Source of the DNA: Antedon mediterranea
Taxonomy: Eukaryota; Echinodermata; Crinoidea; Comatulida; Antedonidae
Reading direction: 5' to 3'
DNA length: 64,000 bases
Assembly: GCF_964355755.1 (NCBI RefSeq)
Contig: NC_092677.1
Span: 3,973,001-4,037,000 of the forward strand
Shown in pieces: positions 2,582 through 54,273 of this stretch. Under the pieces are notes generated by a model. The model did not search any database. It worked only from the letters and a program-made list of their open reading frames with translations, and had not been told where the DNA came from. Both the position numbers and the translations under genes were made by a program. Within the stretch, counting starts at the first letter, position 1, and every line of letters starts with the position of its first letter.

Positions 2582-2924
2582 TCACACTTTACTGTCATTA
2601 TTATATGCGCAGTTGAGAATACCATCGTCTTTCTGAATTGTCTGCGCATCTTTATTTAATGGTCGCAAGTCGCAAATATCTACCGATGGGGGTTCTTTGT
2701 CTTTGTTTTCGCCCTGTAAAATAAACAAATACACTTTTTTACTGAACTGTTCAAATAATATTCGGCAAAATATTCTTGTTTTAAACCACTTACATGTTTA
2801 GGTTGAAAATAGTATTTCTGCTGAACTTTCCTCCCTTTGATTTTAAAAAGTATCCCTGCTATGACGATGACGGCCATGAACAGTAGACATAAGCATACAA
2901 TTAGTACATTAGAAAAACTGTTAT
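2582..2924 (-). CDS. Transmembrane and cytoplasmic tail exons of HYR copy 1
   Basis: Exon 2924-2794 encodes a ~21-residue hydrophobic segment (VLIVCLCLLFMAVIVIAGIL) followed by basic FKIKGRKVQQK, a stop-transfer signal fixing the tail inside the cell. Exon 2713-2582 encodes 43 further residues ending AYNNDSKV and TGA. The tail carries Tyr motifs: YYFQ (fits YxxQ) and YNND (fits YxN, the Grb2-type SH2 consensus); signalling use is inference. The tail exon in copy 2 differs at only two residues. Confidence 0.85.
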
Positions 2925-5900
2925 CTGTAAAATAAAAGTAATACGTAGGCCTACTTTATTCTGCGCATGGGCAACATTATTGATGCAATACATACTTTAA
3001 ACATTACTAAAAATTGTTATAATAAAGTGGACATTGTTGACATTGGTATTTATCTAAGCAAGAATTTTTCAAGAAAGCATAAGGAAGAAAAATATTATCC
3101 ACGTACCGTTGTGTATAGTCTTAGATTAAAGTCCAGGCCTATATATTTGTATTTCATTCAGCCCCATAATATTGAAGTTTATAGGGTAGTAATATTTCTC
3201 GTATACACGATAAGCTAAATCTAAATTGATGGAGTATTATTACTGTGTTTGTATATTTACCATGGCTGTTTGATTTGTTCAGGGCGCCCTCTTCGTTTTC
3301 TGTCATTTGCCCGGAAACCGTCAATATTGAACTAGTAATTACTTCCGGTGACACTTCGTCAAATGACGTTGTCTGTTCACTTGGCCATCCCGTAGTTTGC
3401 TGCTGTATTGTAGACTTCTTATGGACTGCTCGGCGCTCAGTCGTTAGCTGTTCAGCGGTAAAAGTAAACTGTTGACTAGGCCTAGCTTTAGTGACTTTCT
3501 GTTCTATATCGTCTTCTGCTGTCACACTTCCGTTGGTCGCTGGAGTGTCAACTTTTGTGACAACGGTGGTTGTCGGAAGGGAATTCAAGGTTGATGATAC
3601 CAACGGTGAAGAAGATTGAACTAATATCGTTGATGGTGAGGAAGTAGATGCCAGTGATATAAATGGATGAAGGGTGGTGTGAGATTTAAAAGGAACTACC
3701 GAGGAAGAAGATGATGTTGCGAAAGAAGAGGTATATGGTGTAGAGAGAGTCAAGTCGTACGATTGTGATTCTGTATATGATTGATAATTGGTTGTCGGCG
3801 ATGAAATTGTTGTTGGTGGTAATGAAGGTGATGGAAATGGTGAAGATGATTGTCCAGAAAATTGTGATGAAATTGTTGTTGATGGTAATGAAGGTGATGG
3901 TAATTGTGAAGATGATTGTCCAGAAAATTGTGATGACATTGTTGTTGATGGTAATGAAGGTGATGATAATGGTAAAGATGATTGTCCAGAAAATTGTGAT
4001 GACATTGGTGTTTGTGATAATGAAGGTGGTGGTAATTGTGAAGATGATTGTCCAGAAAATTGTGATGACATTGGTGTTGATGGTAATGAAGGTGATTGTA
4101 ATGGTGAAGATGATTGTCCAGAAAATTGTGATGACAATTTTGTTGATGACATTGGTGTTAGTGATAATAAAGGTGATGGTAATGATGAAGATGATTGTTC
4201 AGAAAATTGTGGTGACAATGAAGTTGGTGATAACGAAGGTGATGGTAATGATGAAGATGATTGTTCAGCAAATTGTGATGACATTGCAGTTGGTGTCAAC
4301 GAAGGTGATGTTAATTGTGAAACTGATGGTTTAAAGAAAAAGTGTGATGATATTGGTGTTGGTGATAATTGCGTTGACAGTAACTGTAAAGATAAAAGTG
4401 AAAATGAAAATTGTGATGACGTTGGTTTTGGTGATAATGAAGGGGATAAAGTTCGAAATAAAAATGGTGTTGGTGATAATGACGTTGTTGGTAATTGTGA
4501 GAATGATAAGGATGATGATTGAGCATTTACTGATGATGTTTCTGGCTGAGAGGGCGTGTTTTCTTCTTTTCTGTAGATTTCTGTTATAGTTTGAGGTGAC
4601 ATGGTTGTGTCTGGAAAAGTTATTTCTGGTTCATTTTCTGTAAAATAAAACAAATCACAAAGTGGTTGAGAAGTCCATTGTGGTAATATAACATAGACAT
4701 CTAGTGTTAAGTTGTTTATGTTCCTGGGTGTCTTTATTGTTTTACTGTATTATATTGTTGGATCCATTACTGAGCACGACTTTTAACATTGAGGTTGTTA
4801 TATTTCATAAAACGCTAGCATTGTTGTTAATTGTTTACCTGAAACGTGAACGTAAAAACTACAGAATGCGGTGTTCCTAGAAGAATCTTCAAATTGATAC
4901 ATTATAAAAGTGGTACCGATCGGAAGAGTTGCAGATGCTGTCAAATTTACTCGTTTTCTATATGGTTCCAAACAAAATGGCGTCACCGCGTCGTTGTTTA
5001 CTTGAATCTTAGAAATCAATTCTAGGTCATATACAACTATCGACCAATGTACTAAAGTGCTGTTTTCACCCCGACGAAAACATCTGATAAATTCCGGGCA
5101 TTCAAACGTGGGTGGAGTATTGTCTGAAAGATGATGTATATTATGCAAATTACTTCAATACTGTCAAACCCGTCGTCGCCGTCGTCATCACTAAATGAAA
5201 ACATGGAACACTTTTAATTCTCTATCCAAGCACCAAGCCACAAGATCGTGCAGTTATAGAATGGTATTTTGTGACGACTATCTGCGTAAATGGAATCTGC
5301 ATACAGATACAAATGCATCGCATGCGTACAATTTTTATATGGATGCAGACACGAACAGAGCAAGAGACCAGCAAGAGATTGCTTCCAAACAGTTTTAATT
5401 CATATCTTGTACACACATCTGTATATCTGGCTTTAACATTTAATTTTCTAAAGTTAAAATTATGATGTATAACTACTGATCTTAAAGCTGAGATGCAGGC
5501 ATGAATTTGAAATATAATATCTGGTATTGTACTTAAATCAAATATTTGTAATAGAAATCAAAACGAAAAAACATGAATTTCCCTTAAAATGATCAAATAC
5601 AAAATTTGGCAAAATTCTGCTATAAAACCCAGGGAGACTTTTTTTTATTAGTTAGGTAGTTTAACCTAATGTAATAACAAGTATGGTGACTCCCTAGAAG
5701 GGAGGCATCTGGCCTTTAAGTTCATCCTCATTCGGATGTTACTGTGATCAAGAAGTTTACTGAAATGTTCTAAAAATATTGATGACAGCTTTTGTATTGC
5801 GGTCAAAAGTTGGAATTATTATTCAGAAACTGAAACACGCGCCTACCATCTAACTAGTATGAAAATCAACATAAAAGTAAACTTTAGAAAGCTTTTACTT

Positions 5901-8900
5901 GTAATGTGTTACGATCTCTATTTAAATGCTTCCGTTTAGATATAACTTGCCTGTAACGAGAAAGTACAGTTTGCATGAATTCACATTTCCGGATGCATCT
6001 TCTGCCGTAAACTCCACTTCATAAGGAGGGTAGAATTTTGGCACGAACACATCGCCAGACTTGTGTGATGACTTCATTATCAGACGACCTCCACTGTTGT
6101 CAAAAACTGTAGGATCTTCCCACGTGACGACGGAACTCATGTTGGCATCTGAATCAGTAGCAGCTCTAACAATGCCGAAGTATGTATCGTAGTAATTTGT
6201 AATGTTCGTTGGGCATTCTATAATCGGAGGTTCGATGTCTAGAATAAAATAAACAACATCCCTACTATACGATTGGAATGCAGAAGAAAAGGAGATTCAA
6301 AGAAGCACGTGGTACATGCATTATGTTAGATGAAAGGGGCGTGTGTTTGCCAATGAGTAGACTTGAAATAGAGCCTACATTTCTCTTCGATTAACTTACC
6401 TATAACTGTGAAATAAATGTAGCAAGATTTGTTATTCCCAAACAGATCAGTTGCAGTCATTTGTACAGTATACGGTGGAAACTGTCGCATCGGAATCTTA
6501 TCACCTGATGTATAGGGGAAGCTTTCCCACGTGACCAGATCTTGACTGTTGTCATCAACGTCTGGAGGATACCACGTGACTGTTGCGTATGGATGACCAT
6601 AATCAGTAACGAGGCGATGAAAACCAAATATATAGTCGTAATAATTGGAGAAATTACTCGGACATATAATTGATGGACGTTCATTGTCTAAAATAACAAT
6701 TTTTAAAAGAAATTTAAATTTTGCTGTGTTTTTAGGAATTTAAACAAAGATTTTGATCTCATTATGTGCGAAAACTCACCTATAACTGTAATAGTAAGCA
6801 GACAGGTACCATTGTTACCAGATGTATCTGTCACGGTGTATTCAACTTCAGTTACACCGATAGGAAAAAAGCCATGTTGAGCAAGAGTTATATTTTCGCC
6901 ATTTAATGTAGTTTTCGTAGGTTCAACTCTAGAGTCGTTAGACATGCAGTAGCTGACAGCAAAATTATCATTTAGTGTGATGTTCCAGAAGAATAACGCA
7001 AACCTCGAACCGTCGTCTGTATAGCGTTCCAAGTCAGGTAGACATTCAACTGATGGACTTTCCCAATCTATTTTTAAACCAAGTTTAAACCAAGAGAAAA
7101 AGTATTGACAAATTATTTTCCTTAAAGCTCTGTCTACACTATCAAACTAGTAAATTATTTGTTGTCACATAAAGTTTGATAGTGTAGGCAGGGCTTAAGA
7201 GTAGTGTTGAATGATTTCGGTAACACTAACATTCCTACTTCAAATAAAGCTATCTAACATGACTGTATTTGGAAAGAAATGGAAGGTTGTCTTTCGATGT
7301 ATGACTTGATTCGCTGCGATCGATTATGAGAAAACTAATGACTTATAAAAAGCGTTACAAAGCTTTTTCAGAACTTGAGTTTTCTGAGTAAGCTCTGATG
7401 TTTGCAAAATTGTTTACCGCCCTTATGTCGTACTTCTGGGTTCTCTATCTAAATTTATCTAGTATCATAAGAAAATCATGTGATACAATTTACTATATTT
7501 TTTTATTTATTTTTTTTTATTCAGTTGTCAACCAACAGCGATGAAACCGCCACTAACAGGTTGAATCTAAAGATAATAAATATAAAATGTATTCAAATAA
7601 ACAACACAAACATAAACAAAGATAACAACATTAAAGAGATTTAACAATTTTACCCTTAAATACATTTAAACTATCATAAAATAAATCAATATCCAAACAA
7701 GTAACAAGTAACCTATTAAATGTGTTAGGTAACCGCTGAAAGATACCTCGTTTTGTGCATTCAACACGACCACAAGGAACGTGAAGCAAACACTTGCTGC
7801 GAGTACGAGTTGGAATATTCAACTTAAACAAAGCAACAAGAGGACAATCATAAACGGAATTGAATGAGTTGTATAAAAAAAACATATCAAAAAGAACTCT
7901 ACGATTTTCAAGAGAAATAAGAGAAACATTATAATTAGGACAAGTGCGAGTAAGGAATCTAATGAATTTGTTCTGAACATTATAAATACGCTGAGATTGA
8001 GTACAAGAAATTGAATTAAAAATGACTGAACAGTATTCCAGGTGGGGGCGCACGACTGAACGGTACAATGATGTTAATGCTCCACCATTGCCCATGAATC
8101 TACAGTTCCTCCATAACAAACCCAGCATTATATTTGCCTTAGATACAACATAATTAACATGTAAACAAAAATATAACTTACTATCAATTAAAACTCCTAA
8201 ATCCCTTTGAGACACCTGTATCAAGTTAACCCTTAACATACCCTATACAGGCACTTTGATACCCCGTGAGATGTTGTATTGTGAAATTAGCCTATGACAC
8301 TGGGTTGGCATTTATCAATATTTGCTTATATTTTTGCTTAAGGTGAAATATTTAAGAAGTGCTTAAGCAAATAACTTAATCTTATTTATCAAACCGTCTT
8401 AGCAATGTCTTAGCAGAAAAATTGTCTTAGGTAAATTTTACTTTGCACATGCGCAAAATTAAATTCTAGAGGGCAGCAAATTATGTCTTAAGATGAAAAA
8501 TTCTTGCTTACGCATGCGTATTACCTTTTTTCTCTTAGCGATGGCGGCGCTATAACATTTTATCTCCGTATTTTCACTCCCAACAAGAGAGGGCGCATTC
8601 TGGCTACTATTGTTTTTATTACTTAAAATAGAGAAAGAGCACAACAGTCGGAAATACATACGAAAATCATTCGCTCTAAACTTAAATCAAATCAACATTT
8701 ATTTATTTTTATCAATGACAGCGACCCTTGGCAGCCGATACAGTTTTCTAAAAGTTAGTCAATTGGGTCGTACCTATCCCGAAAATATTAGTTTTGCTCG
8801 TCCAATTTCTAGGCCATCTTTATGAAGATCGATATCATTATTTTAGCGTCCGTAGTACAGCGGAAAACGAACTAGCGTAGCCTTTCCGAATGTTCAATGT

Positions 8901-11900
8901 TCCGGCCTAGCGCGCTCGCGTTGTCAAAAAAGAATGTTTCTGTTGCAGAAATGAGATAAGACGAAATTTTTCATCTTAAGGCAGGGTGTTGTTTGTCTTA
9001 GATTTAAGACAAAATTAAGCAAATTGTTTTGCTTAGATATATTGATAAATCTGACTTAGGCAAAATCAAGGATTTAAGGCAAAGTTAAGACGATTTTTTT
9101 GCTAAGCAAGTTTGATAAATCCGGCCCCTGGAGTATATTGTCATTAAAGGCCAGGTGCGGGCAAAAAATTTCTATTGATCATACATTCCAATAAATATCG
9201 ATCTATAGTTTCCCCTATGTTTCATAATTTTTAAGATTTTATTTGTGTTACACGAGCTTGTTGAAAATAAGCACTTTCTTATCAGTGGGGGGATAGTTCA
9301 AATTACACAGTAAAATCTCTATTCTTTTGTACACAAATTTTGTAAATAGAGAGGCATTTTAAAAAGCTATGAAAAATAAACGGTGTGGTAAAAAATGTTA
9401 TCAGATGACTAAATATAGGTAATATAACTTGAATATTACATTTCTGATATTTTTATTCAACTTCAGATTTTTATTTTCATGCTGTAGCAAAAATTATCCA
9501 CCGTATATCCACCATCTTTTTTCACCGTCTAGGGAGTCACCAGACATGTTATTACATTAGGTTAACTACCTAACTACTGAAAAAAGGTCTTCCTGGTTTT
9601 TATGGAAGAATTTTGCAAAATTTTGTATTTGACCATATTAAGGGAAATTCATTTTTTTTCGTCTTGATTTCTATTACAAATATTTGATTTATGTACAATT
9701 AACCAAATATTATATTTAAAATTCATGCCTGTACCTGAGCTTTAAAGCAATAAGTTGACCTACCTTCGACTGCAATATAAAACGAACAATTTCCGACGTT
9801 GTTATCCCGGTCAATTGCAGTGTACGTTATTTCATAGGCAGAACTTCCTGCCGGAAATTCATCACCAGAGTTGTAATTTGAACTGATGGAGACGACTGTA
9901 CCACTGTTGTCTGTGACGTTTGGTTGTGGCCAATACAATCGAGCACTTCTGGAGGACACGTCAGTGAAAACTGACCAAGAAGACTCTGAAGTTCTTTTAA
10001 CCATGTTGTTTGAATGCGCTGGACAATGTAAAACTGGATTTTCAATGTCTACAATGGTAAAAAAAATATAATTAATTTGAGTGTGGTGAATATGGGTAGC
10101 TATTATGGCCAAAATAAGAAAAATGTCATAACCTGTATATGAAAAAGCATCTCAAACATCTCCCGTTCGCAATAATCTACTACTGCACAAGGTATGTAAA
10201 AGCTAAAGGAGCGTTAATATTGTGGCAATTTATTATTTTATTATTTCTGTATTTTTGGTAATCATAACTAGATTAATATCCTACCTACAACTGCAAAGTG
10301 TAGAACACATTCCTCAAAGTTTCCTGATTGGTCCGTTGCCCGTACTGTAGTCGTGTAAGGTGGAAACATTCTCATTGGGTAAACATCGCCGGGTTTATTT
10401 GGATAACTTGTGATATTGGGAGGAATTCCGCTATTATCTCTGGCAACCAAAGGAACCCACGTGATAGTGCCGTTAGGACTTCCTGCATCAGTATGAGCGT
10501 GGATATAGCCGTAGTAGGTTCTATGATAATTTGACGTTACATCAGGACACTGCAGTTCGGGTGGCTCATCATCTGTCAACAAAGAACAGTTTATTGTTAT
10601 GACTAAGACTAAATTTAACATATTTCTCTATCTTTTGCATGTTTTTTTCCCAAATGTAGAATTGGTTTAGGCCTATCTCGTGTACTACTCCATTCACCAA
10701 TTATAAAAAAAAATCAGATTAAAAATAATGATAAAGATACATATTTTAACGGTCATTATTGTAGTGTACGCTCGGATGAATTATAAGCGTAAAACAAATA
10801 CCATACCAATAATAGGTATATTAAAGATGCATTCAGCCTCGTTTCCAGCAACATTTTTAATTTTCGTTAATGAAGGTAACTCCCATTAACCAATGTTGCT
10901 TGCCCACAGACATCAATCAGAGTTGTGATTCTATAAATCTCGCATTGACATCAGAAACTCCCAAATGGCGAGGAGAGTTGATATCAGTAATTCGATATAC
11001 TCTTACTTTATTGGTCATTAGCGCACTGTAAAATGTAAGTAATCTCGGATAATTTAATTTTTAAAAATCCTACCGATAATAGTTATATTGAAGATGCATT
11101 CAGCTTCGTTTCCAGAGTAGTCTTCTACCCAATACCTCACAGTATAGACGGTTTTCTTTCCACCGACCAATTCAAAGCGTTGTCTTGGAACACTATATGT
11201 CTTTTCTTCTGTCTGGATGCCTTTGTTGTCATGTGCTATTGGTTCCGTCCAACTAACTTCCTGGTATTTTCCCTGAGCTTCAACAATCTGGTTATTTGGA
11301 CAATTTCTTAATGTTGGGTTCTCCAAGTCTGTTAATTTGTGTATCGATAAAATAACAGTAAAAACTTAACAAAAAGTTTAATTTTACACACTAAAATATT
11401 CCTGGTGTTTGAGAGATAAGAAACCACATTTTTAGACGAAAGTAAAATATAATAACTCTTTTTGTTGTATCATTTTATACTACTGCTTTTGTTTTCGATG
11501 TAAAAATGGACTTTTAAAGTAAGCCTTTAAATCTAATCACTTATGTTCTGAATTGCAGGAAATAGTCTATACACAGTCTTGTCAACCAGATTTAGGACAT
11601 AAATAAGCAGTGTTCCTTAAAAATCATTTGTTTGTCGTACAGTCTGGAACTCGAAACCACAACTCCCCACTAGAGTGGTCATAAATGTGTACATTTTGTC
11701 ATTTTCTCAAAATGTCTTTGAAATGGAATCACTAAGAAATGTATGTATTTATTTGTTGAAAAAGGTAGCGCCTATCTGAAAAGGAAATTTAAACTATCAT
11801 AACATACCTCCTGGACCATCACAAATAACACCAGCGTCTTCGGAATGTCCACAATTGTGAACCTTAAATCCATTATTAGAGCATCTTCTTATATCAGTTT

Positions 11901-12525
11901 CATATCCTGTACACTGAACATCATCGTACATAATTGGACCCAACCCCTGGCCAAATTGAGCTTGTAGCGGGGCTCCAGTTGCGTCTCCAAAACCTAATTG
12001 CCTACACACAACTCGAGCGTCTTTTATATCCCAATAATCATCACATATTGTACCCCATTCTCCACCATTATATACTTCAACTCGTCCCTCATAACTATTG
12101 CCGCCACCAACAAGTCTGACTGTGGTAATACACATGAATAAAACCTTAAACCAATTACTTGGCCTAAGTAGATTCTAGTAAGCAATGTCATCCAAGTGAA
12201 TTTTTATTAAATTATTATTTTTAAAAAACACAAAAGATGTTCTCAGAAATTCAAATCTCATGGAACTTTATAATGGTTAACATTAGTCCCAAAAGGAATA
12301 ATGCGTTATATGGTCTATCTACTATAGCATCGGACATGTCGTAGGACTCTAAATTAACTTTATAAAAGGAAATTTACTAAAATGTAAACACAATTAAACG
12401 TCACTTATAATTTTAACTTACGTTTAGTTACAATATTGATCATTCTTACCTGTCGATGACACAGTAGCAGGCACAATGAATAGGAAAAACAATGGAGTTT
12501 TCCAGTGAGTTTTCATTATACCCAT
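2582..12525 (-). CDS. HYR copy 1: SRCR-(HYR)7-mucin-TM receptor-like protein
   Basis: Twelve coding exons, read high to low: signal peptide 12525-12450; SRCR 12119-11808; HYR1 11328-11074; HYR2 10572-10285; HYR3 10048-9764; HYR4 7067-6780; HYR5 6687-6400; HYR6 6238-5951; HYR7 5123-4839; Ser/Thr/Pro-rich 4637-3261; transmembrane 2924-2794; tail 2713-2582. All have AG acceptors and GT donors except HYR6, whose donor is GC. The lengths sum to 4005 nt, 1334 residues and a stop, with every junction in phase. The product should be a single-pass type I membrane protein: a cleaved leader, an SRCR head likely to bind glycans or proteins, seven Hyalin-type Ig-fold repeats, a long O-glycosylatable stalk, one membrane segment and a short tail. 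I do not recognise a named ortholog. A role in adhesion or immune recognition is inferred from the domains only. The next gene up is a tandem paralog with another head domain. Confidence 0.85.
3261..4637 (-). CDS. Mucin-like stalk exon of HYR copy 1
   Basis: A single 1377-nt exon encodes about 459 residues dominated by Ser, Thr and Pro. The central part (about 3765-4340) is a tandem repeat of a ~23-residue unit resembling SSQFSGQSSSPLPSPSLPST, with unit-to-unit substitutions. This composition predicts dense O-glycosylation and an extended rod that lifts the HYR/SRCR head from the membrane. Antisense frames of the repeat look like Asp/Gly/Asn-rich proteins but are shadows. Confidence 0.85.
4839..11328 (-). 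CDS. Seven HYR domain exons of HYR copy 1
   Basis: Each exon (coordinates in the gene entry) is 255-288 nt, begins at phase 1 with a codon for Asp or similar, and encodes one HYR module. Shared marks are an N-terminal PP..xCP, a central DNSG or similar, and a C-terminal YTAxDxSGNxxxC followed by a hydrophobic strand ending in G. Putative N-glycosylation sites (NxS/T) are frequent. HYR3 and HYR4 are separated by a 2.7-kb intron holding three transposon insertions missing from copy 2. Confidence 0.88.
5482..5703 (+). mobile_element. Old copy of the TTAAA-ended MITE, partial (family B)
   Basis: This intronic stretch matches, in reverse orientation, 9527-9746, including gcaggcatgaattt, caaatatttgtaatagaaat and gtaatataac-type words through to the ctccctagaag end. 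A third copy is in copy 2 near 17064-17190. Its presence in both paralogs at the same place shows it preceded the gene duplication. Confidence 0.5.
7122..7198. mobile_element. MITE family A, short form
   Basis: A 77-bp element bounded by TTAA, with ends TTAAAGCTCTGTCTACACTA and its inverted copy. The orthologous element in copy 2 (18616-18785) is longer, so this copy has lost its interior. The insertion preceded the tandem duplication. Confidence 0.7.
7495..8212 (-). mobile_element. 5'-truncated LINE insertion (RT C-terminus)
   Basis: The minus strand encodes the C-terminal part of a non-LTR reverse transcriptase, including LGVLIDSKL, LYRSVVRPHLEYC and the RIYNVQNKFIRFLT stretch. The frame stops at 7631 and a T-rich run on the plus strand at about 7495-7525 is the A-rich 3' tail. 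Copy 2 has an uninterrupted aatttactatat...gacacctgtatc at about 19010-19030, which sets the borders. Jockey/CR1-type group is likely; the exact clade is not certain. Confidence 0.8.
8304..9127. mobile_element. 824-bp non-autonomous TIR element (family C)
   Basis: Imperfect inverted ends of about 25 bp (left gttggcatttatcaatattt; right, reverse strand, gggccggatttatcaaactt), each followed by repeated cttaagc-type words, enclose 824 bp with no significant open frame. Copy 2 has an empty site gaaactggagtatattg at about 19097, and CTGG is repeated on both sides of the insert. No transposase is present. Confidence 0.7.
9142..9746. mobile_element. ~600-bp MITE with TTAAAG..CAGG ends (family B)
   Basis: The ends are an inverted pair: left ttaaaggccaggtgcgggc and right, reverse strand, tttaaagctcaggtacaggc. 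The insert is missing at the equivalent spot of copy 2 (about 19112-19130). Its right half resembles 5482-5703 in opposite orientation. No coding potential seen. Confidence 0.65.
10802..10850 (-). pseudogene. Relic of the 3' end of HYR exon 1
   Basis: This intronic stretch closely matches the last ~45 coding bases and the donor of HYR1 (11074 region): the same atgcattcagcctcgtttcc core and a decayed donor. It is too short to code and looks like a truncated duplicate. Confidence 0.55.
11808..12119 (-). CDS. SRCR domain exon of HYR copy 1
   Basis: One phase 1-1 exon encodes a complete scavenger receptor cysteine-rich domain of about 104 residues. It opens with VRLVGGGNSYEGRVEVY and contains GEWGTICDD, ARVVCRQLGFG, a DDVQCTG stretch and the closing GVICDG. 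Six cysteines are visible. This domain is absent from copy 2, which has a C-type-lectin-like domain in the same place. Confidence 0.92.
12450..12525 (-). CDS. Signal-peptide exon of HYR copy 1
   Basis: The exon reads MGIMKTHWKTPLFFLFIVPA followed by TVSST, a short basic stretch, a hydrophobic core and a small-residue cleavage region. The donor is ACAG|GTAAG at phase 1. An upstream in-frame TAG blocks extension, so the start is ATG at 12525 or the second Met at 12516. The equivalent exon of copy 2 is at 27359-27416. Confidence 0.8.
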
Positions 12526-13641: not shown

Positions 13642-14028
13642 TCACACTTTACTGTCATTATTGTATGCGCAGTTGAGAATACCATCGTCTTTCTGAATTG
13701 TCCGCTCATCTTTATTTAAAGGTCGCAAGTCGCAAATATCTACCGATGGAGGTTCTTTGTCTTTGTTTTCGCCCTGTAGAATAAACAAATACACTTTTTT
13801 ATTGAACTGTTTGTGTTATAGAAGGCATTAATATTCGGAAAAATATCAAGTTTCTGAGTTCTTAATTTATTTTGTGATATGTTCTTGTTTTAAAACCACT
13901 TACATGTTTAGGTTGAAAATAGTATTTCTGCTGAACTTTTCTCCCTTTGATTATAAAAAGTATCCCTGCTATGACGGCCATGAACAGTAGACATAAGCAT
14001 ACAATTAGTACCTTAGGAAAACCGTTAT
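13642..14028 (-). CDS. Transmembrane and tail exons of HYR copy 2
   Basis: Exon 14028-13904 encodes VLIVCLCLLFMAVIAGILF and a basic KGRKVQQK stop-transfer; it is two residues shorter than copy 1. Exon 13773-13642 encodes the 43-residue tail, identical to copy 1 except AQ replaced by ER. In the frame left by the upstream shift these exons are not reached. Confidence 0.8.
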
Positions 14029-14344
14029 CTGTAAAATAAAAGTAATACGTAGGCCTACTTCATTCTGCGCATGAGCAACAGTATGATACAATACATACCT
14101 TATACATTAACAAGATTTTTTTTTAAGTGGACATTGTTGACAATGGTATTTATCTAAGCAAGAATTTTTCAGGAAAGCATAAAAGAAATAATATCCACGT
14201 ACCGTTGTGTATAGTCTTACATTAAAGTCTAGGCCTATATATTTGTATTTCAATCAGCACCACAATATTTAAGTTCTTCTCGTGTACAAATTGATAAGCT
14301 AAATCTAAATTGATAGAGTATTATTACTGTGTTTGTATATTTAC

Positions 14345-15818
14345 CATGGTAGTTTGATTTGTTCAGGGCGCCATCTTCGTTTTCAATCATTTGCCCGGAA
14401 ACCGTCAATATTGAACTAGTAATTACTTCCGGTGACACTTTGTCAAATGATGATGTCTGGTCACTTGGCCATCCTGTAGTTTGCTGCTGTCTTGTAGACG
14501 TCTTTTGTACTGATCGGCGCTTAGTCGTTAGCTGTTCAGCGGTAAATGTAAACTGTTGACTAGGCCTAGCTTTAGTGACTGTCTGTTCTCTATCGTCTTC
14601 TGCTGTCACACTTCCGTTGGTAACTGGAGTGTCAACTGTTGTGACAACAGTGGTTGTCGGAAGCGAATTCAAGGTGGATGATGCCAACGGTGAAGAAGAT
14701 TGAACTAAAATCGTTGATGGTGAGGAAGTAGATGCCAGTGATATAAATGGAAGAAGGGTGGTGCGCGATTTAAAAGGAACTACCGAAATTGTTGTTGATG
14801 GTAATGAAGGTGATGGTAATGGTGAAGATAATTGTCTAGAAAATTGTGATGACATTGGTGTTGATGGTAATGAATGTGATGGTAATGGTGAAGATGATTG
14901 TCCAGAAAATTGTGGTGACATTGGTGAAGGTGATGGTAATGGTGAAGATGACGGTTCAGACAATTGTGATGACATTGTTGTTGGTGGTAATGGTGAAGAT
15001 GATTGTCCAGAAGATTGTGATGACATTGTTGTTGATGGTAATTGTGAAGGTGATGGTTTAATAAAATATTGTGATGACATTGGTGAAGGTGATGGTAATG
15101 AAGGTGATGGTAATGGTGAAGATGACGGTGTAGAAGATTGTGATGACATTGTTGTTGATGGTAATTGTGAAGGTGATGGTTTAATAAAATATTGTGATTG
15201 TGACATTGGTGTTGATGGTAATGGAGGTGATGGTAATTGTGAAACTGATGGTTTAAAGGAAATGTGTGATGACATTGGTGTGGGTGAAAATGAAGGTGAT
15301 GGTAATTGTGAAGATGATGGTTTAAAGGAAATTTGTGATGATATTGGTGTTGGTGATAACGAAGGAGATGGTAATTGTGAAACTGATGGTTCAGAATGTT
15401 GTGATGACATTAGTCTTGCTTGGTGATAACGAAGGTGATGGCAATTGTGAAACTAATGGGTTAAAGGACAATTTTGATGATTTTGGTGTTGGTGATAGTG
15501 GCGTTGACAGTAATTTTGAAGATAAAAGTGGAAAGGAAAATTGTGATGACGTTGGTTTTGGTGATAATGAAGGTGATAAAGTTTTAAATAAAAATGGTGT
15601 TGGTGATAATGACGTTGACGGTGGTGATGATGATTGTGATGATAGTTTTACTAATGGCGAAGGAGTAACAGGTAACTGTGATATCGGAGCATTTACTGAT
15701 GATGTTTGTGGCTGTGTAGAGGGCGTGTTTTCTTCAAAGTAAGAGTCATTTCTGTAGTTTTCTGTTATGCTTTGAGGTGACATGGTTGTATCTGGAAAAG
15801 TTATTTCTGGTTCATTTT
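14345..15818 (-). CDS. Mucin-like stalk exon of HYR copy 2, frameshifted
   Basis: The exon encodes a Ser/Thr/Pro-rich stalk with tandem units like those of copy 1 but shuffled and with different unit numbers. The upstream frame runs from 15818 and ends TNVITTF-stop at 15391; the downstream frame covers the rest from about 15410. At the junction the coding strand contains CAAG twice in tandem where related units have a different spacing; one copy of those four bases would keep a single frame. Downstream sequence keeps the same coding bias to the donor at 14345. Confidence 0.8.
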
Positions 15819-16002
15819 CTGTAAAATAAAATAAATCATAAAGTTGTTAAGAAGTCTTTTTTGATAATATAACATAGAAATCTCGTGTTAAGTTGTTTAT
15901 GTTCCTGTGTGTCTTTATTGTTTTAATAAACATTACTGAGCACGACTTGTCTTTTAAAATTGAGGTTGTTATACTTCATAAAACGCTAGCATTGTTGTTT
16001 AC

Positions 16003-16330
16003 CTGAAACGTGAACGTAAAAACTACAGACGGTGTTCCTTGAAGAATCTTCAAATGTATACATTATAAAAGTGGTACCGATCGGAAGAGTTGCAGATGCT
16101 GTCAAATTTACTCTTTTTCTATATGGTTCCAAACGAAATGGCGTCACCGCATCGTTGTTTACTTGAATCTCAGAAATCAGTTCTAGGTCATATACAACTA
16201 TCGACCAATGCACTAAAGTGCTGTTTTCACCCTGACGAAAACATCTGATGAATTCCGGGCATTCAAACGTAGGTGGAGTATTGTCTGAAAGATGATGAAT
16301 TTTATGCAAATTACTTCAATACTGACAAAC

Positions 16331-16365
<35 letters not shown>

Positions 16366-19300
16366 ACCCAACGCAAAATGGAACACTTTTAATTTTCTAA
16401 CCGAGCACCAAGCCCCGACAATGTGCAGTTATAGAATGGGATTTTGTGACGACTACTGTATCTGCGAAACTTAACAATATCTGCGAAACTTAACAAGATC
16501 TGCATACATACCCAAGTGCATCGCATGCGTACAATTGTATTACCATGACGTCCTGGTCGTCGTTAGCATCATCGTCTTATATTATGTACAAACTACCGTA
16601 ATTATTTTTATACTGATGTGCATATGGAATATTCTTTCGTCAACTAATACAGTAACGAACAGAACAAGAGACCAGAAAGGAATTTCTTCTAAACAATTTT
16701 AATTTATAACTTGTTAAAGTATACAAACAGCTGTATACAGTATCTGGCTAAAAGTCTTTTGTCTTCAGATCTTATGAATACATTGACACATTTCATAATA
16801 TATAACTGATCTAGGTTACTGCGATTAACGAGCAAATTTCTAAATATTAGCTTTTATATTGCAGTCAAAAGTTGAATTATTATTCTTAATTATTCTTATT
16901 AAGCTGAAAAACACGCATACCATGCCATCTAACTAGTAAGAAAATCACTATACCAAAGTAAACTACTGTGTACAAGTAGTAGGCTATATTTGCCTTACAT
17001 AAGTATCGCTACAATTTATTTTATTTATTTATTTTATGCTTATGCCGTTAATTTGGAGAAAAAAAATATAAATTTCCCTTAAAATGGTTAAATACAAAAT
17101 TTGGAAATATTCTGCTATAAAAACCAGGGAAACTTTTTTCAGCAGTTAGGTAGTTTAATCTAATGTAATAACATGTCTGCTGACTCCCTAGAAGGGAGGC
17201 ATCCGGTCTTTAAGTTCGTCCTTTGTCGGATGTTAACTGTGACCAAGACGTTTACTGACATTTTCTCAAAAATATTGATGACAGCTTTTGTATTGCGGTC
17301 AAAAGTTGGAATTATTATTCAGAAACTGAAAACACACGCCTACCATCTAACTAGTATGAAAATCAACATAAAAGTAAACTTTAGAAAGCTTTAACTTGTA
17401 ATGTTCTACAATCTCTATTTAAATGCTTCCGTTTGGATATAACTTGCCTGTAACGAGAAAGTACAGTTTGCATGAATTCACATTTCCGGATGCGTCTTCT
17501 GCCGTAAACTCCACTTCATAAGGAGGGTAGAATTTTGGCGCGAACACATCGCCAGACTTGTGTGATGACTTCACTATCAGACGACCTCCACTGTTGTCAA
17601 AAACTGTAGGATCTTCCCACTTGACGGAACTCGTGTTGGCATCTGAATCAGTAGCAGCTCTAACAATGCCAAAGTACGTATCGTAGTAATTTGTAATGTT
17701 CGTTGGGCATTCTATAATCGGAGGTTCGATGTCTAGAATAAAATAAACAACATACTATACGATTGGAATGCAGGAGAAAAGGAGATTCGAAGAAGCACGT
17801 GGTATATGCATTACGTGAGATGAAAGGGGCTCGTGTCAATGGAGTAGATTGTGCATCAGTATTAAGCCGACTTGAATTAAAGCCTACATTTGTCTTTTAT
17901 TAACTTACCTATGACTGTGAAATAAATGTAGCAAGATTTGTTATTGCCGAACAGATCAGTTGCAGTCATGTGTACAGTATACGGTGGAAACTGTCGCATC
18001 GGAAACGTATCACCTGATGTATAGGGGAAGCTTTCCGACGTGACCAGATCTTGACTGTTGTCATCAACGTCTGGAGGATACCACGTGACTGTTGCGTATG
18101 GATGACCATAATCAGTGACTAGGCGATGAAAACTAAATATATGGTCGTAATAATTGGAGAAATTACTCGGACAGATAATTGATGGACGTTCATTGTCTGA
18201 AATAACAATTTTTAAAAGAAATTTAAATTTTGCTGTGTATTTAGGAATTTAAACAAAGATTTTGATCTCAGTATGTGCGAAAACTCACCTATAACTGTAA
18301 TAGTAAGCAGACAGGTACCATTGTTGCCAGATGTGTCTATCACGGTATATTCAACTTCAGTTACACCGATAGGAAAAAAGCCATGTTGAGCAAGGGTGAT
18401 ATTTTCGTCATTTAATGTAGTGTTCGTAGGTTCAACTTTAGAGTCGTTAGACATGCAGTAGCTGACAGCAAAATTATCGTTCAGTGTGATGTTCCAGGAG
18501 AATAACGCAAACCTCGAACCGTCGTCTGTGTAGCGTTCCAAGTCAGGTAGACATTCAACTGATGGACTTTCCCAATCTGTTTTAAACCAAGAGAAAGATT
18601 GACAAATTATTTTCCCTAAAGCTCTGTCTACACTATCAAACTAGTTTGACAAACAAGTGTAATTTGCCTAATGGTAGTGATCTGTTCAATTATGGTAGTG
18701 ATGCGACATCGTCATGTGTTCATATATGGGAACATCATAAATTATTTTTGTCACATAAAGTTTGATAGTGTAGACAGGGCCTTAAGAGTAGTTTTGAATC
18801 TAACATGACTGTATTTTAAGGGAAATGAAAGATTGTTAATCGAGGTAGGACTTGATACGCTCTTATCAATTATGAGAAAATCAATGATTCCTCTAAAAAG
18901 CTTTTTCAGCACTTGAGTTTTTTTAAGTAAGCTCTGATTTACAAAATAGGTTACCGCCATCATGTCGTACGTACTTCTCGGTTTTCTATCTAATTTTTGT
19001 CTAGTGTCATGTAATTTACTATATGTGACACCTGTATCAACCTAACCCTTAACGTGATACAGGCACCTTGATATTGTATTGTGAATTTAGCCTTTGAAAC
19101 TGGAGTATATTGTCATAACGAAAAATTGACTTGCCTTCGACTGTAATATAAAACGAACAATTTCCGACGTTGTTATCTCTGTCAATCGCAGTGTACGTTA
19201 TTTCATAGGCAGAACTTTCTGCCGAAAGTGCATCACCAGAGTTGTAATTTGAACTGATGGAGACGACAGTACCACTGTTGTCTGTGACGTTTGGTTGTGG

Positions 19301-22300
19301 CCAATACAATCGAGCACTTATGGAGGACACGTCAGTAAAAACTGACCAAGAAGACTCTGAAGTTCTTTTAACCATGTTGTTTGATTGCGATGGACAATGT
19401 AAAACTGGCCTTTCAATGTCTACAATGGTCAAAAAAAATATAATTAATTTTAATGTGGCGGATATGGGCAGTCATTGCGGCCAAATTTAAAAAAAAAACA
19501 ACAATTCATCACCTGTAAATGCAAACACAAACATCTCCCGTGAGCAATAATCTACTACTTCACAAGGTATGTAAAAGATAAGGAGTGTTAATATTTGGGA
19601 AATGTAATATTTTATTATTTCTGTATTTTTGGTAATCATAACTATAGATTAAATCCTACCAACAACTGCAAAGTGTAGAACACATTCCTCAAAGTTTCCT
19701 GATTGGTCCGTTGCCCGTATTGTAGTCGTGTAAGGTGGAAACAGTCGCATTGGATAAACATCGCCTGATTTAAGTGGATAACTTGTGATATTGGGTGGAA
19801 TTCCGCTATTATCTCTGGCAACCAAAGGAACCCACGTGATAGTGCCGTTAGGACTTCCTTCGTCAGTATGAGCGTGGATGTATCCGTAGTAAGTTCTATA
19901 GTAATTTGAAGTTACCTCGGGACACTGCAGTTCGGGTGGCTCATCATCTGTTGAAAGGAGAATTCTTTGTATTTTTCTAAATTATTATATAGTTATAACT
20001 CCCCTTTACCACTTGCTCTTAAATGGCGAGGCGAGTATGTAGTGATCATTGAGGTATATGTACTGACATCGGAAACTCCCAAATGGCAAGTCGAGTATGT
20101 AGGCCTACTGATGTCACAATAAAGTAATAAGTACACGGTATGTACGTAAGGTAATCCGGAGTTTTCACCACTTATTTTTTTACCAACTAGTCTGAACCAT
20201 TTACCAGCCTAAATCTACTCTTCATGAGGCGAACAAGATCACAATCAGTTAAGAAGCCAGTTAAAAAGTCAACCAATGATACAAAAGGTAATATTTTAGA
20301 ACCAAAATCTCCTACATATCTAGCCACTATGGCAAGTACAGCACAGCATACGGACACAATACCACCACCTGAATATGCATCTAGCTCTGGTACGCAAAAC
20401 GTTAACCGGGTCGTGAATGAAACAACCGATAGTATGCCTACAATTGATATGAACTCATTGTATCAACTTGTGAGCAAAATGGGAGCTGATATGCGACACC
20501 AATTTGAAGGCTTATCCCAACAATTTACTGATCTAAGAAAAGAAATTAAAAGCATAAAAAGTGAAGTCAAGGATATGGATGTTCAAATAAAAAACCTTCG
20601 ATCAGATATTCATGACGTCAACAATTGCGTCATTCCGCAACTTGCCGAAGAAATGCGAAGCAAGATTAGCTTACTGGACCAATCACGATTGGAGATAGAA
20701 TTATATAGCAATAACAGAAGAGAACAAGAAATGCTATGTATCCGGGGACTTTAATTTTGATTTACTTTGTGTTAATATGAATAAAACAATTAATGACTTT
20801 TTAAATATGTTCTACATGAACAATATGTTTCCCCTTATTGATAGACCAACACGAATAACGCATAGATCAGCCACTCTTCTTGACAATATCTTTACTAATG
20901 TAATCACACATCCTATCCAATCTGGTGTGTTTATATGGGATGTTACAGACCATTACCCTGTTTTTCAAATCACAAATTCCCTGAAAGTTAAACACAAAAG
21001 TAATATTGGATACACACGATCACGGTCATTTAAACAACAAAATATATATCGCTTCATAGACACGATACAAACAACTGAATGGAACAATGTACTTCAAGAA
21101 CAATCGCCTGAAATAGCATATAATATATTTTCAGACAAGATTACAAACACATACAATACATGTTTTCCTATACAATCTAAGCACAAAAAATCAAAATATA
21201 ATCGCATTCCTCGAAATCCATGGATTACTAAAACCATTATAAAATCTATAAATCGTAAAAATAAGCTCTATAAAAAGTATATTTTTCATCGCCAACCACC
21301 ACAAATAAAAATAAATTTACTCGCTATCGTAATATACTTACCTCAATACTCAGAAACGCAAAGAAAAAATACTACACAGAAGAACTAAATAAAACCCAAA
21401 ACAATCTAAAGAAAACTTGGAATATTCTTAATGGACTTCTAGGTCGAAAACAAATTTACCACTTACAGGATAATATGAAAATAAATGAGACGGAAGTTAA
21501 TGACCATAACGTAATCGCTAACAGCTTTAATAATTATTTTTGTAATGTTGGTCCTGAACTTGCCTCAAAAATTCAATCAACCCAAAACGATGAATTTAGG
21601 AATCATCTGAAGAATTATCATCACCAATTAATTCCTTGTTTTTTCTACCAACCGATGTTAATGAAATAATTAGCACATGTAACTTACTTAATTCAAACTC
21701 AAGTCCGGGATATGACGATTTAAAAATGAGTATCATTAAGTGTGTTATCCACTCCTTGGCGATTCCTCTAACACATACCTTCAATATGTCTATCCTTTCT
21801 GGTATTTTTCCAACTAAACTTAAAATACCAAAGGTAGTACCAATTCACAAAGCAGGTTCTTATAATAAAATTCAAAATTACCGTCCAATATCTGTATTGC
21901 CAGCGTTTTCAAAAATTTTCGAACGAATTATCCATAATCGCCTATATAAATTTATAAATAATAATACTTTACTTTATGACCGGCAATACGGGTTTCGTAG
22001 TAAATATTCATCTTACATGGCAGTACTAGAAGCGTATAATGATATAGTTACAAGACTTGATAAAAATCATCATGTTATGGGTATATTTTTGGACCTCGCA
22101 AAGGCATTTGATACCATAGACCATCAAATCCTTCTCAAAAAACTTTATCATTACGGTGTTAGAGGAGTCGCCTATGAGTGGTTCAAGAGTTATTTAACCA
22201 ACAGATCCCAATTCACCGTGTATAACAATCATAAATCAACAACTAATATAATTCGATGCGGGGTTCCACAAGGGTCCATTTTGGGCCCATTATTATTTAT

Positions 22301-24041
22301 AATTTATTTAAACGATATTGTTTCTATTTCCGATAATTTCTCATTTTATTTATACGCAGATGACACCAACATAGTAGTTTCTGATAAAAATATTAAACAA
22401 CTCATTACGACAGTAAATCAAGAACTAAATAAAGTTTCCTCCTGGCTTAAATCTAATAAATTATAACTTAATATACTTAAAACAAATTACATTATGTTTA
22501 AAAATAAGCATAGTAGACGACAATATCACAATATTCAAATTATGATTGACAATACTACTATTTCACAGGTCTCTGATACTAAATTTTTAGGCGTAATTAT
22601 AGATGAAACACTAACATGGTTTAATCACACAGAATATATATCCAACATTATTTCTAAATATACTGACATTTTATTTAGACTAAAACATGCTCTCGCACCG
22701 AATATTTTATTTTCTTTATATCGCACATTAGTTCTCCCATACTTATATTATTGTAATCTTATTTGGGCAGATGCAAACAACTGCAATTTGAAAACCATTC
22801 ATTTAAAACAAAAGAAAATAATTAGACTCTGTACAAACTCATCCTGGCTGGCCCATACTGCACCCTTATTTTTAAAATTAAAAACTTTAACAATCTATGA
22901 TATTCATAAATTACAAAAAGCAATTTTTATGTTTAATTTTGTTAATAATAATCTACCAAGTAATTTTAATACTTTTTGGGCTAGGGTAAAAGAAACACAT
23001 TGTCATAATACAAGAACATTAAATGATTTGCGTCCTCATAATTTCAGAACAGACCTGGGAATGAATACCATTAAACGGCAAGGACCTATATTGTGGAATG
23101 ATATAAGCAATTTTATTAAGAACCAATGTACCTTAAGTTTATTTAAGAAGAAATTTATTCACAGTTTATTATCAACGTATCAGTAATATTATGTTATATT
23201 ATTTAATTAGTAGAGTAACATTATTTAAGTTTACTTAAACAATATATATATATATATATACATATATATGTGTGTGTATGTAAATCTATTACATTTTTTA
23301 TCTAAAAGATGATATTCAGATTTTATTACCATGTACTAGTAAAAATAAAAATAACTATATGTAAAATTCATGTTAACCTTCTTCAGAAGTAAGTTAAAAA
23401 TTATCATTTTATGATCAAAAAGAAATATACTATCTAATTTTCTCCTTTATATAAATATATTATTTTATCCAAGGGGTTGCAAACACAAGTGTTCACATGT
23501 CTTGTTATGTATTGCACCTTTGTCTTGTCTTTATGTTGTCTGTAATGTCACTGCACTAACGGGTGACCGGCTAACGAGCTTCGCTCTTACGGTTATCCAT
23601 CCATATGAGTTGTTTATCTTATGTTCATAAATTGAAATGGAAAATAAACTGAAACTGAAACTGAAACTGAAACTATAATTATCAGTACATATTTGCATCA
23701 AATTTATTTTCTTCTACTTGAACGGTTATTCATCTTACTGTAAAATATAAGTAATCTCGGATAATTTAATAAAAAAAAAATCCTACCGATAATAGTTATA
23801 TTGAAGATGCATTCAGCCTCGTTTCCAGAATAGTCTTCTACCCAATACCTCACAGTATATACGGTTTGCTCTCCATCGATCAATTCAAAGCGTTGACTTG
23901 GAACACTATATGTCTTTTCTTCTGTCTTGATGCCAACATTATCATGTGCTATTGGTTCCGTCCAGCTAACTTCCTGGTACCTGGAATAAGTTTTAACAAT
24001 CCGGTTGCGTGGACAATTCCTTAATGTTGGGTTCTGCAAGT
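16003..24041 (-). CDS. Seven HYR domain exons of HYR copy 2
   Basis: Seven exons with coordinates as in the gene entry; each is phase 1-1 and open. Each corresponds one-to-one to copy 1 with high similarity: HYR1 keeps NPTLRNCP and YWVEDYSGNEAECIFNITI; HYR7 keeps NTPPTFECPEFIRCF. Small in-frame differences (3 bp shorter HYR6 and HYR7) fit selection for frame. The HYR1-HYR2 intron is split by a ~3.5-kb LINE. Confidence 0.85.
16310..17447. other. Intron HYR6-HYR7 of copy 2 with old repeats
   Basis: Contains a GTC/GCC trinucleotide run on the plus strand near 16333-16370 and a MITE family B remnant near 17064-17190. Sequence from about 17190 to 17430 closely matches 5690-5930 in copy 1. No exon seen. 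Confidence 0.5.
18616..18785. mobile_element. MITE family A, long form
   Basis: Bounded by CTAA/TTAA and by the inverted pair agctctgtctacactatcaa and its complement; ~170 bp. It sits in the same intron position as 7122-7198 in copy 1. Confidence 0.7.
20150..23685 (+). mobile_element. Degenerate CR1/L2-like LINE in HYR copy 2 intron
   Basis: Plus-strand, antisense to the host gene. ORF1-like frame 20224-20754 has a basic N-terminus and a heptad-rich coiled coil (about residues 70-170), as in LINE nucleic-acid chaperones. It runs directly into an endonuclease remnant containing GDFN, so the N-terminal part of ORF2 is deleted. Frames 20777-21388, 21475-21669, 21636-22466 and 22494-23186 hold the rest: SSPGYDD, FLDLAKAFDTIDHQ, CGVPQGSILGPLLF and the catalytic YADD. 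Shifts near 21370 and 21650 and a TAA at about 22464 break ORF2, so it is inactive. The 3' end has a TA/TG microsatellite and a terminal (CTGAAA)n run at about 23647-23680. Confidence 0.88.
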
Positions 24042-24695
24042 CTGTTAATGCTATCAATAAAAAAAAAACAACAGTAAAATAATATTTATTATTATTATTT
24101 CATACGCATCCAACAGACTAACTCGCCAATTACAGGATGGATGGAACTAGTTTATTATTATTTATTATTTTTTGTGAGTTACAACCACCAAGCTTTAGTT
24201 CCACTACTATTATTCATGTAATATTTCTACTTTACTGGAAATAAACATGTCGGTTAAAATATCCCGATACGTATAGATGGGTAGTAGCAGGTAATATCAC
24301 CACTAACGTACAGACTAAAATGATAACAATGCATGGTAGGCCTATAATAGAAGAGATCCAATAAACTTCTTAAATTTAAGACGGAAGTAAACGAATGATG
24401 TTGTTTTGGTATTTGGTTTTAACTTTAAAAACATTTTACTTTTGTTACAATTTACAAAAGCCAAAACTAAGTATTTATTGAAATTTATAAAAGTACTTCC
24501 ATGTTCTGAAGTATAATTATACTATGCAAAGCTTGCAGAGAATATTTAGTTTAAAGGTCATATTTTAAGGTTGGTTAAAACAAATTCCATAGAGCTCTTA
24601 CAATAACGTAATGACCAATTGGTACTTTATTTTGTGACGGAAGGCCAAGACCTTTCTGAGCTTTCTATGTGAACAAATCCGTCTCTGAAACTTAC

Positions 24696-25270
24696 TCTTT
24701 TCACATACAAATCCCTTATAAGAATAACAATATTGACTGTTCCAGTTACCAGTAGTATAACTACTGTACCCCTCGTACCTCATAATAATACAATTTCCAG
24801 GACTGCTATCTATAAACAACATTAAAAATAGTAAATCAAAATTTCGTTGTAACACATTATAATAACACAGACTATCGAAACATCATCAGAAATAGAAAAT
24901 ATGAATATCAGTAGGCCTATCATGCACTATCTTGGATAGATGAAGTCTTCGGCCGAGGAAAGGTATTCGAGCCGACTGGGGCACCAAAGGATCTTGTAAA
25001 AACGTAATAAGCACAAATAACTAATAATAATTCGAGTAGTAGGCTTACATCTGTCTAGTTTAGTCCATTTATATTCATTGTCCGTTAAGCGGATCCATGA
25101 GTCTTGACTTATACGATTTTTAATAAAGTTATTCTCTGCATCACTTTCTATAGCGGCCAAATCTGCTTCGTAATTATTGCAATAATTCCTGGCAATCTGC
25201 CATCCCCTTGTGCTTGTTAGAAATCGATAACAGTTTCCTTGAAAGTAACTCCATGACCAAGCACAGCTGC
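24696..25270 (-). CDS. C-type-lectin-like domain exons of HYR copy 2
   Basis: Exon 25270-25049 encodes SCAWSWSYFQGNCYRF, then WQIARNYCNNYEADLAAIES, ENNFI and DSWIRLTDNEYKW, the first half of a CTLD. Exon 24809-24696 encodes SSPGNCIIMRYEG, GNWNSQYCYSYKGFVCEK, the second half. Both are phase 1-1. The usual loop with WxxGEPN or EPN/QPD and WND motifs for calcium and sugar binding is not found. A 48-nt in-phase candidate exon at 24975-24928 could supply a short loop, but its donor is weak. Sugar binding by the classical site is therefore unlikely; protein ligands are possible. Confidence 0.75.
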
Positions 25271-27358
25271 CTAGATGGCGTGTGAACAAATAAAATCAAT
25301 AAATGAATCACATAATTAAACATAAGGAACCAGTTATGTCAACAAATAAAAAGATTGATTTTTTCCAAAATATTTGACCAAATTCGGTGTTTTTAAAATT
25401 CAATAAATATTATGAGTTACAGTTGCTATTGTAGCCTATATAAAAAAAATAAACAAGGCCATATACATGGCTGCAGTCGCTTGCTCAAATTTGAGTTAGT
25501 GTTTACCGACCAACTAACTGACCGACCAACCGACCGACATAGTGAGCTAAAAAAACTATACCGGTACCAAAAACATTCAAAATTAAGGACTTTAAAAAAT
25601 TCAATAATTAGGATTCGTAATTTATTCTTTTCAAAATCACATTTCAATCATCTACTCTCATTATATTATCTATATATAAATTTACGTAAGGGCAAAATTC
25701 GGTAAATCGCGCGTTATTTCTAGAATGTTTACTCGATGGTATATAAAGTTGGTTCGTACTTTCGGTACTGATTTTAACCGCCTGATGTAACCCTGTTTAC
25801 TAATTAAATTGAGTTCGATAATTAGTTATTGACGATTAAAACGAATTTAGGTTCAACGATTTGCCCCAAATAGGGGTGTTTTTCGATCGTGGTATACACT
25901 GTCTAATGGATGTCCGTATTGAAAAATACCCGCAGACGATAATACGAGGATGCTTCGCATTTTCCTATCTCCTCCTACGATAATTGTTTTTAATGGCTGA
26001 AAACCGGTTGAACAGCTCGAGTACAGCATCATAATGTTGAAGACAGGCCGATTTTCTTTAAAAAATACTATTTTGATAGATTTAATATACGTTTATACAA
26101 ATGTATTGATTTGCGATGAATGGAACATTCCAATCTCTGTTCCACAATTGTCTATTCCCTCAGGCGTCGTAAAGGCAAGTACTGTATACTCATAACAGAA
26201 ATTCGATCCATTTTTTTTTTCAATCTGTGCTGCAGAGGTTGGATATAATTTTTTTTTAAACGGATAAAGAGCTAGCGTTTTAACTCGCCGAATATTATGT
26301 ATAAATCTTTATTATTGCAGTTAAACCACCCACATCATCACCCTTCCCTCACTGGCATGAGTAGCGTTGTAAAACCAGTAGAGGATAGGCCTACGGTACA
26401 TCACATGCCCTAAACGCAGAACAACTTTGGTGGGTAGGGGGTGGGTAGGGTAGGAACCAACTGAAGTATGAAACAATTGAAAACCATTGGGCCTACTGAT
26501 TAAGTTGAGTTAGATAATTTAATATTTATCGACGATTAAATCGAATTTATGATTTTCCCCGAATAGAGGTGGTTTTCACAAATTGTTTTACATTATATAA
26601 ACATATACACGTCGTAGTGATGTATCGTTACATGTACTATACTATTTCAATCGACTAGGACGGTGATAGTTTCAACAAAGTATTACATCGCAATGTTTTA
26701 CTGTGTTTAGTGGTATATTATTTGTAAAACATGAAAACAATTAATATTTCGTTACTACATGGATAAAGAATATATTTAAAAATTGTTCCTCTTTGCACCC
26801 ATCCTCTTTCCCATCCCTCAACCCTAATGTTACATACAAAACACAAATTAAGTTTGTTTAAATTTGTCTCAGTTTCTCTTTCGGAAGTAATTCCCAGGGT
26901 GCTAATTTTAGTTCAGTACATAAATCACAGTGTCTATTTATTTGTTCCTGTAAACGACATGTATTATTGTCCTGCGGTACGTACATTTGAAACCATCTAG
27001 TTATCAAAATTCTTCATAAAGTTTATTTATTTTTGGTATATTTGAGAAAATCAAAATTTTGAAATAGCGCCTAATGTGTTTTACCAATTACTTTCAATTG
27101 CGATTTGTTAAGCAAAACACGAAACATAATTGGTTAGATGTACAAGTCAAATTGTACTGAACAATATATTTATTGAATATAAAATCTTTTTTAATTAACA
27201 ATACTTCTAACATTAATATATTTATATTTATAGCTGTTTATCTTTGTTGACTTCGTATTATTCAGTTTTACTGTGAAGATTATTTGTAATAAACATACTA
27301 TTATGAATGAATTAAAAAATGTTTTTATCTGCAATAATTATTAATATTTTATCCTTAC
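25271..27358. other. Intron 1 of HYR copy 2
   Basis: No coding exon found. Two diverged copies of a ~90-bp segment lie at about 25795-25880 and 26492-26580 (shared ttgacgattaaa/aacgaattta and gaataggggtg-type words). A fragment at about 25485-25555 matches the (GACC)n-rich insert family of the 42-kb satellite (ccgaccgacatagtgag). Confidence 0.45.
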
Positions 27359-27416
27359 CTGTCGACACAGTAACAGTAACAGCAGTAATGAATAGGACAA
27401 AAAACAAGTTGTTCAT
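27359..27416 (-). CDS. Signal-peptide exon of HYR copy 2
   Basis: ATG at 27416 gives MNNLFFVLFITAVTVTVST, a typical leader, then donor ACAG|GTAAGG at phase 1. It aligns with the copy 1 leader (shared LFFxLFI..A.TVS.ST). The Ngaro-type element begins only about 220 bp upstream at 27637, so it may have replaced or displaced promoter sequence. Confidence 0.75.
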
Positions 27417-54266: not shown

Positions 54267-54273
54267 ATTTTAC

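Follow-up and report, generated by a model that had tools for sequence, protein, structure and literature searches.

Two neighbouring genes in the genome of the crinoid Antedon mediterranea carry different head domains on a common receptor chassis, and the anatomy that they have in common goes far beyond chance. The pair probably arose by local replacement of the head in one copy of a tandem-duplicated gene, within a three-copy family that has one intact member. The analysed window (C8:3973001-4037000, a stretch of 64,000 nucleotides; positions without a contig name refer to it) belongs to a 354-Mb genome in 18 contigs. Gene A (12516..2582) and gene B (27416..13642) are tandem neighbours on the minus strand, and the third copy is a relic on another contig, here called C. 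The exon models of A and B are predictions obtained by in silico splicing of the genomic sequence; exon phases and splice sites were read from the joined exons. The sequence-only reading of this DNA had proposed two adjacent same-strand genes with the same parts in the same order, and the seven HYR exons, the stalk exon, the transmembrane (TM) segment and the tail were all recovered in each of them. It had also claimed that the exons behind the leader differ, and this was borne out by an SRCR domain in A (Pfam E 7.6e-33) and a Lectin_C domain, i.e., a C-type-lectin-like domain (CTLD), in B (E 1.3e-12).

The 12 exons of gene A joined into a single open coding sequence of 3,996 nt (1,331 residues) with the domain order leader, SRCR, seven HYR, Ser/Thr/Pro-rich stalk, TM helix and tail. 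Each junction from the leader through the TM acceptor is in phase 1, and the TM-tail junction is in phase 0. The leader (signal-peptide) exon (12450..12516) has a phase 1 donor and is followed by the SRCR exon (11808..12119, phase 1-1), which scored 113.3 bits vs. a cut-off of 26.1 for Pfam PF00530. SRCR domains of group A have six cysteines and are encoded by two exons, while those of group B have eight cysteines and a single exon; with six cysteines within one exon, the SRCR domain of A is mixed relative to these criteria. The Pfam HYR model matched HYR1 (11074..11328; E 3.3e-14), HYR3 (9764..10048; E 2.1e-14), HYR4 (6780..7067; E 1.6e-9), HYR6 (5951..6238; E 8.2e-10) and HYR7 (4839..5123; E 2.6e-9). 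HYR2 (10285..10572; 21.2 bits) and HYR5 (6400..6687; 18.9 bits) fell short of the HYR cut-off of 21.7 bits and were accepted because their order and their conservation among A, B and C support both; HYR5 is 82-94% identical in C and B. HYR6 ends in a GC donor (GCAAGT) that is common to all three copies. The mucin-like stalk exon (3261..4637; 1,377 nt) is open, contains 45% Ser+Thr+Pro and has no Pfam domain; it precedes the TM exon (2794..2924) and the exon for the cytoplasmic tail and stop codon (2582..2713). The tail measures ∼55 residues in the three-copy family. A YxN motif is kept in it, as YNN in A and B and as YTN in C, and so is a C-terminus that reads S-K-V, the form in A, or S-R-M. 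Going by motif alone, we would guess at a similarity of the first element to an SH2-docking site and of the second to a PDZ ligand.

Gene B consists of 13 exons, from 27416 to 13642, that encode a leader, a two-exon CTLD, seven HYR domains, the stalk, the TM segment and the tail. The intron between the leader exon (27359..27416) and the CTLD contains a dispersed repeat of ∼1.3 kb (25668..26992, minus strand) with dozens of copies genome-wide. CTLD exon 1 (25049..25270) and exon 2 (24696..24809), both phase 1-1, gave the Lectin_C match when joined. They are followed by HYR1 (23787..24041), HYR2 (19660..19947), HYR3 (19135..19419, with a GC donor), HYR4 (18289..18576), HYR5 (17909..18196), HYR6 (17448..17732, again with a GC donor) and HYR7 (16003..16284); HYR4 and HYR5 were placed by genome-wide searches in addition to splicing. 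A LINE-like element on the plus strand (20191..23186; RVT_1 E 2.4e-33) occupies the HYR1-HYR2 intron. The mucin-like stalk exon (14345..15818) is 1,474 nt long (3n+1), and as assembled it has a +1 frameshift near 15,391-15,452 that leads to a stop at 15,391, codon 931, ahead of the TM helix. The TM exon (13904..14028) and the tail exon (13642..13773) lie 3' of the frameshift. As the stalk, TM and tail beyond it are still open in the next frame, the damage looks as expected if the frame had been lost recently or the assembly were wrong at this place; gene B may now encode a secreted protein of 930 residues or be a null allele, unless the frameshift is an assembly error. The stalk, TM and tail that had been described as common to both genes are thus present in B, but its reading frame ends before the TM helix.

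The limits of the homology between A and B were determined by blastn, which paired 1876-11355 (A) with 13007-24065 (B). The edge of this match lies ∼24 bp before HYR1, and the similarity continues past the 3' end. Exons are 88-98% and introns 75-97% identical, with 84.7% for the pooled non-coding sequence of the chassis. The chassis has a dS of 0.12 and a dN of 0.041 between A and B, and the dN/dS ratios of 0.33 (A-B) and 0.19 (A-C) show that the chassis is under constraint. The leader exon and its 5' flank are homologous as well (12695-12432 vs. 27629-27343; 294 bp, E 3e-14), with 63% identity counting gaps and 74% without gaps, so that the leader proposed to be shared is shared in DNA. From the leader to HYR1 no similarity was detected by blastn: this interval comprises ∼1.1 kb with the SRCR exon in A, and ∼3.3 kb with the CTLD exons and the 1.3-kb repeat in B. 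No trace of an SRCR was found in the 5' region of B and none of a CTLD in that of A. The swapped head exons are phase 1-1 throughout, and because phase-1 introns lie on both sides, the head cassette is replaceable without a change of frame.

Whole-genome searches with the tail, HYR4 and HYR5 found the chassis at three loci only: A, B and relic C on contig C7 (tail match at C7:10113263). These searches scored the best candidates only, and a very diverged copy could escape them. Relic C comprises a leader-like stretch, an SRCR exon, HYR2-6, the stalk, the TM segment and the tail; HYR1 and HYR7 were not found in it. Its SRCR is 66% identical to that of A and is located at the corresponding position. 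The exon is split by a transposon-like insert of 1,304 bp (C7:10101282-10102587), which has perfect inverted ends of 34 bp and comes with a target duplication of 7 bp (CTTGTAC); the stalk frame of C is broken. In the best explanation, C is a pseudogene in which the ancestral head, an SRCR, is still recorded. Over the three chassis loci, the head is an SRCR in two and a CTLD in one; the frame is damaged in two, and only A is open throughout. The suggested tail search with the head of every copy listed, run here in this genome, thus returned both heads, but at three loci only (SRCR, SRCR, CTLD). A large modular receptor family in which heads are exchanged while stalk and tail stay constant would show many copies of one chassis; with three loci, two of them SRCR-headed and two damaged, this part of the sequence-only reading was not supported.

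The synonymous divergences were used to ask which head came first. The A-C dS was 0.73 for the SRCR and 0.64 for the chassis; the two values match and both exceed the 0.12 of the A-B chassis, so that the simpler reading places the SRCR head earlier than the split of A and B. Since the SRCR is found in both A and C, and the branch to C is much older than the separation of A from B, we infer that the SRCR likely preceded the CTLD as head and that B is the copy that changed. The SRCR of A is not clearly nearer to that of C than to other SRCR domains: dS values against the SRCRs of multi-SRCR genes were 0.56-0.87, and the support in an SRCR tree, for which alone the two halves of the split C exon were set side by side, was 83/73. 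Separate gains of an SRCR in A and C are therefore possible. This support was too weak for the tree to prove orthology of the A and C domains, and the distances were undecided too. In the introns flanking the A and C SRCR exons, no common sequence was detectable. The SRCR domain is strongly expanded in this genome (404 first-look candidates, of which the best 150 were scored), and most matches sit in runs of many SRCR exons.

According to its translation, the CTLD of B shows, at the expected places, all six cysteines that mark the long form. Exon 2 is without the EPN/QPD segment, and WNS replaces WND. The spacing from WTKLDR to GNC is four residues, where paralogues from the same genome have the EPN segment, and the B domain lacks the EPN/QPD and WND combination that its paralogues carry as EPN/WND. 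A hidden middle exon with an EPN motif was not seen in the translated CTLD intron. Because the EPN segment is missing, canonical calcium-dependent sugar binding by this domain is unlikely. Both heads had been called classic recognition folds: the SRCR and C-type-lectin-like matches agree with this, but as the calcium/sugar motif is absent, it is doubtful that the CTLD acts as a sugar lectin.

The origin of the B head was investigated by searching the genome for a donor. No donor could be identified, because the closest CTLD in the genome is only 45% identical, and the DNA search with the B head region matched the dispersed repeat only. The equivalent DNA search with the 5' region of A returned only a small repeat, SRCR exons and a single inverted copy of a short element from the flank. 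A ∼150-bp sequence upstream of A (12810-12959) has an 86% identical inverted copy at C8:3972698-3972857, on the far side of A and immediately outside the left end of the window, and no other copy was listed. CTLD-HYR genes are plentiful, and therefore donors of a like kind exist for the B head. CTLD exon pairs followed by rows of HYR exons are abundant at 39.36-39.67 Mb of C1, a one-exon CTLD-HYR-CTLD-HYR-TM gene with a short tail lies at C10:21806841-21808130, and SRCR, HYR and CTLD exons adjoin each other at 2.63-2.65 Mb of C5. Reshuffling of SRCR, CTLD and HYR domains is ordinary in this genome. The CTLD-HYR genes on C1 and C10 resemble B in having a CTLD in one or two exons ahead of HYR; unlike B, the CTLDs examined keep EPN and WND, and the genes have other tails, no SRCR and not the chassis of A, B and C. 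The C1 region forms a large cluster of CTLD exon pairs with long rows of HYR exons (39.0-39.7 Mb). On C5 the SRCR, HYR and CTLD exons share one strand (C5:2634431-2648846), and a HYR-CTLD pair occurs twice, ∼7.5 kb apart.

In the favored history of local head replacement, an ancestral leader-SRCR-HYR gene would have duplicated in tandem, and in copy B a two-exon CTLD cassette would have taken the place of the one that stretched from the leader donor to the HYR1 acceptor. The replacement may have proceeded by recombination between phase-1 introns, which would have kept the frame. The divergence between A and B varies along the genes, with a tendency to higher values nearer the 5' end (dS 0.05 in HYR6, 0.20-0.23 in HYR2-HYR1), which allows an alternative history. 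In this, A and B would be old paralogues with long-different heads, and gene conversion or unequal crossing-over would later have homogenized the chassis from the upstream edge of HYR1 to the 3' flank. The lower identity of the leader region (74%) than of the pooled chassis non-coding sequence (84.7%) and the homology edge within ∼25 bp of the HYR1 acceptor are consistent with it. However, intron 3-4 and the TM-tail intron (75% identical) have diverged as much as the leader, so that the leader is not clearly older, and the leader homology covers 262 aligned bases between A and B vs. 116 and 191 with C. We regard this history as unlikely. A first idea, by which the leaders would far predate the chassis, was weakened when the leader region was realigned.

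A partial tandem duplication, in which the chassis alone was copied behind an existing leader-CTLD start, or the reverse for SRCR, would account for a unit B that begins at 13007, ∼0.5 kb upstream of the A start codon, and for the end of the homology just before HYR1. It appears improbable, as homology between A and B, and partly with C, extends over the leader and ∼200 bp of its 5' flank, and the gene start therefore belongs to the family. There is similarly little reason to expect a head-exchange locus for innate recognition under diversifying selection, at which leader and HYR stalk would stay constant and replacement of the cassette flanked by phase-1 introns would leave members of one population, or different species, with different heads. 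A single transcription unit, whose alternative splicing exchanges heads on shared exons and skips the broken stalk of B, would fit the tandem order on one strand and the phase 1-1 exons, which would keep hybrid B/A transcripts in frame, but is very improbable as A starts with a leader and 5' flank of its own, homologous to those of B, and B ends in a separate terminal exon with a stop codon.

Within the history of local replacement, the family would consist of type I membrane proteins with a signal peptide, a single N-terminal head, a stiff HYR stalk (seven domains in A and B), a spacer, a TM helix and a tail. Gene A would be the working copy. We infer that it acts at the cell surface in adhesion or recognition, with an SRCR head that would contact a ligand while being held off the membrane by the seven HYR domains and the mucin-like spacer. 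Innate recognition or gamete adhesion would be a plausible role, the latter because the sea urchin protein EBR1_5 combines seven HYR domains with a SEA domain and a TM segment. EBR1_5, a putative egg receptor protein of 1,243 aa (PMC5521101), is the nearest published architecture. It resembles A in its single TM segment, its similar size and its exactly seven HYR domains; it differs in the SEA domain, for which the stalk exons of A and B gave no Pfam match at E 0.01, and an SRCR or CTLD head is not reported for it. Strongylocentrotus purpuratus has about 200 SRCR loci (PMC5521101), and receptors of the SRCR superfamily are known from sea urchins and sponges (PMC10855680). These have the SRCR domain in common with A, which differs by a single SRCR exon on a HYR stalk; HYR is not mentioned in the latter paper. 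A literature search for HYR with SRCR and CTLD found no published protein of the full architecture, in line with the earlier statement that no named protein has it.

Further features were observed in the window and elsewhere in the genome. Two adjoining PR-domain zinc-finger genes lie on the minus strand at 48358-63000 (Pfam PR domain E 3e-27 and 3e-23), which we take to be PRDM10- and PRDM15-like. An array of about 99/296-bp repeats at 39206-45817 includes a 329-bp perfect palindrome (45024-45681), and a LINE-like retrotransposon on the minus strand (31425-34236) has its reverse transcriptase split over two overlapping frames. A homeodomain search found one ordered Hox cluster of 12 genes at 7.83-8.21 Mb of C2; by our reading of the homeodomains, its end consists of Hox9/10 and a trio of Hox11/13-type genes, of which one is inverted. 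A complement of Hox9/10 and Hox11/13a-c has been described for Ambulacraria (PMC6307216), to which the C2 cluster points; taken by itself, it would fit a hemichordate at least as well as an echinoderm. In addition, a posterior Hox inversion is mentioned in a hemichordate (PMC11175523); the C2 cluster is similar to the ordered clusters with inverted posterior genes of acorn worms.

No new class of immune receptor emerges from the A/B pair. It would represent a fairly young exon-cassette replacement (chassis dS ∼0.12) between two recognition folds, for which the genome itself contains an outgroup copy that hints at the older of the two heads. Related species could show how often, and between which introns, the heads of invertebrate receptors exchange.
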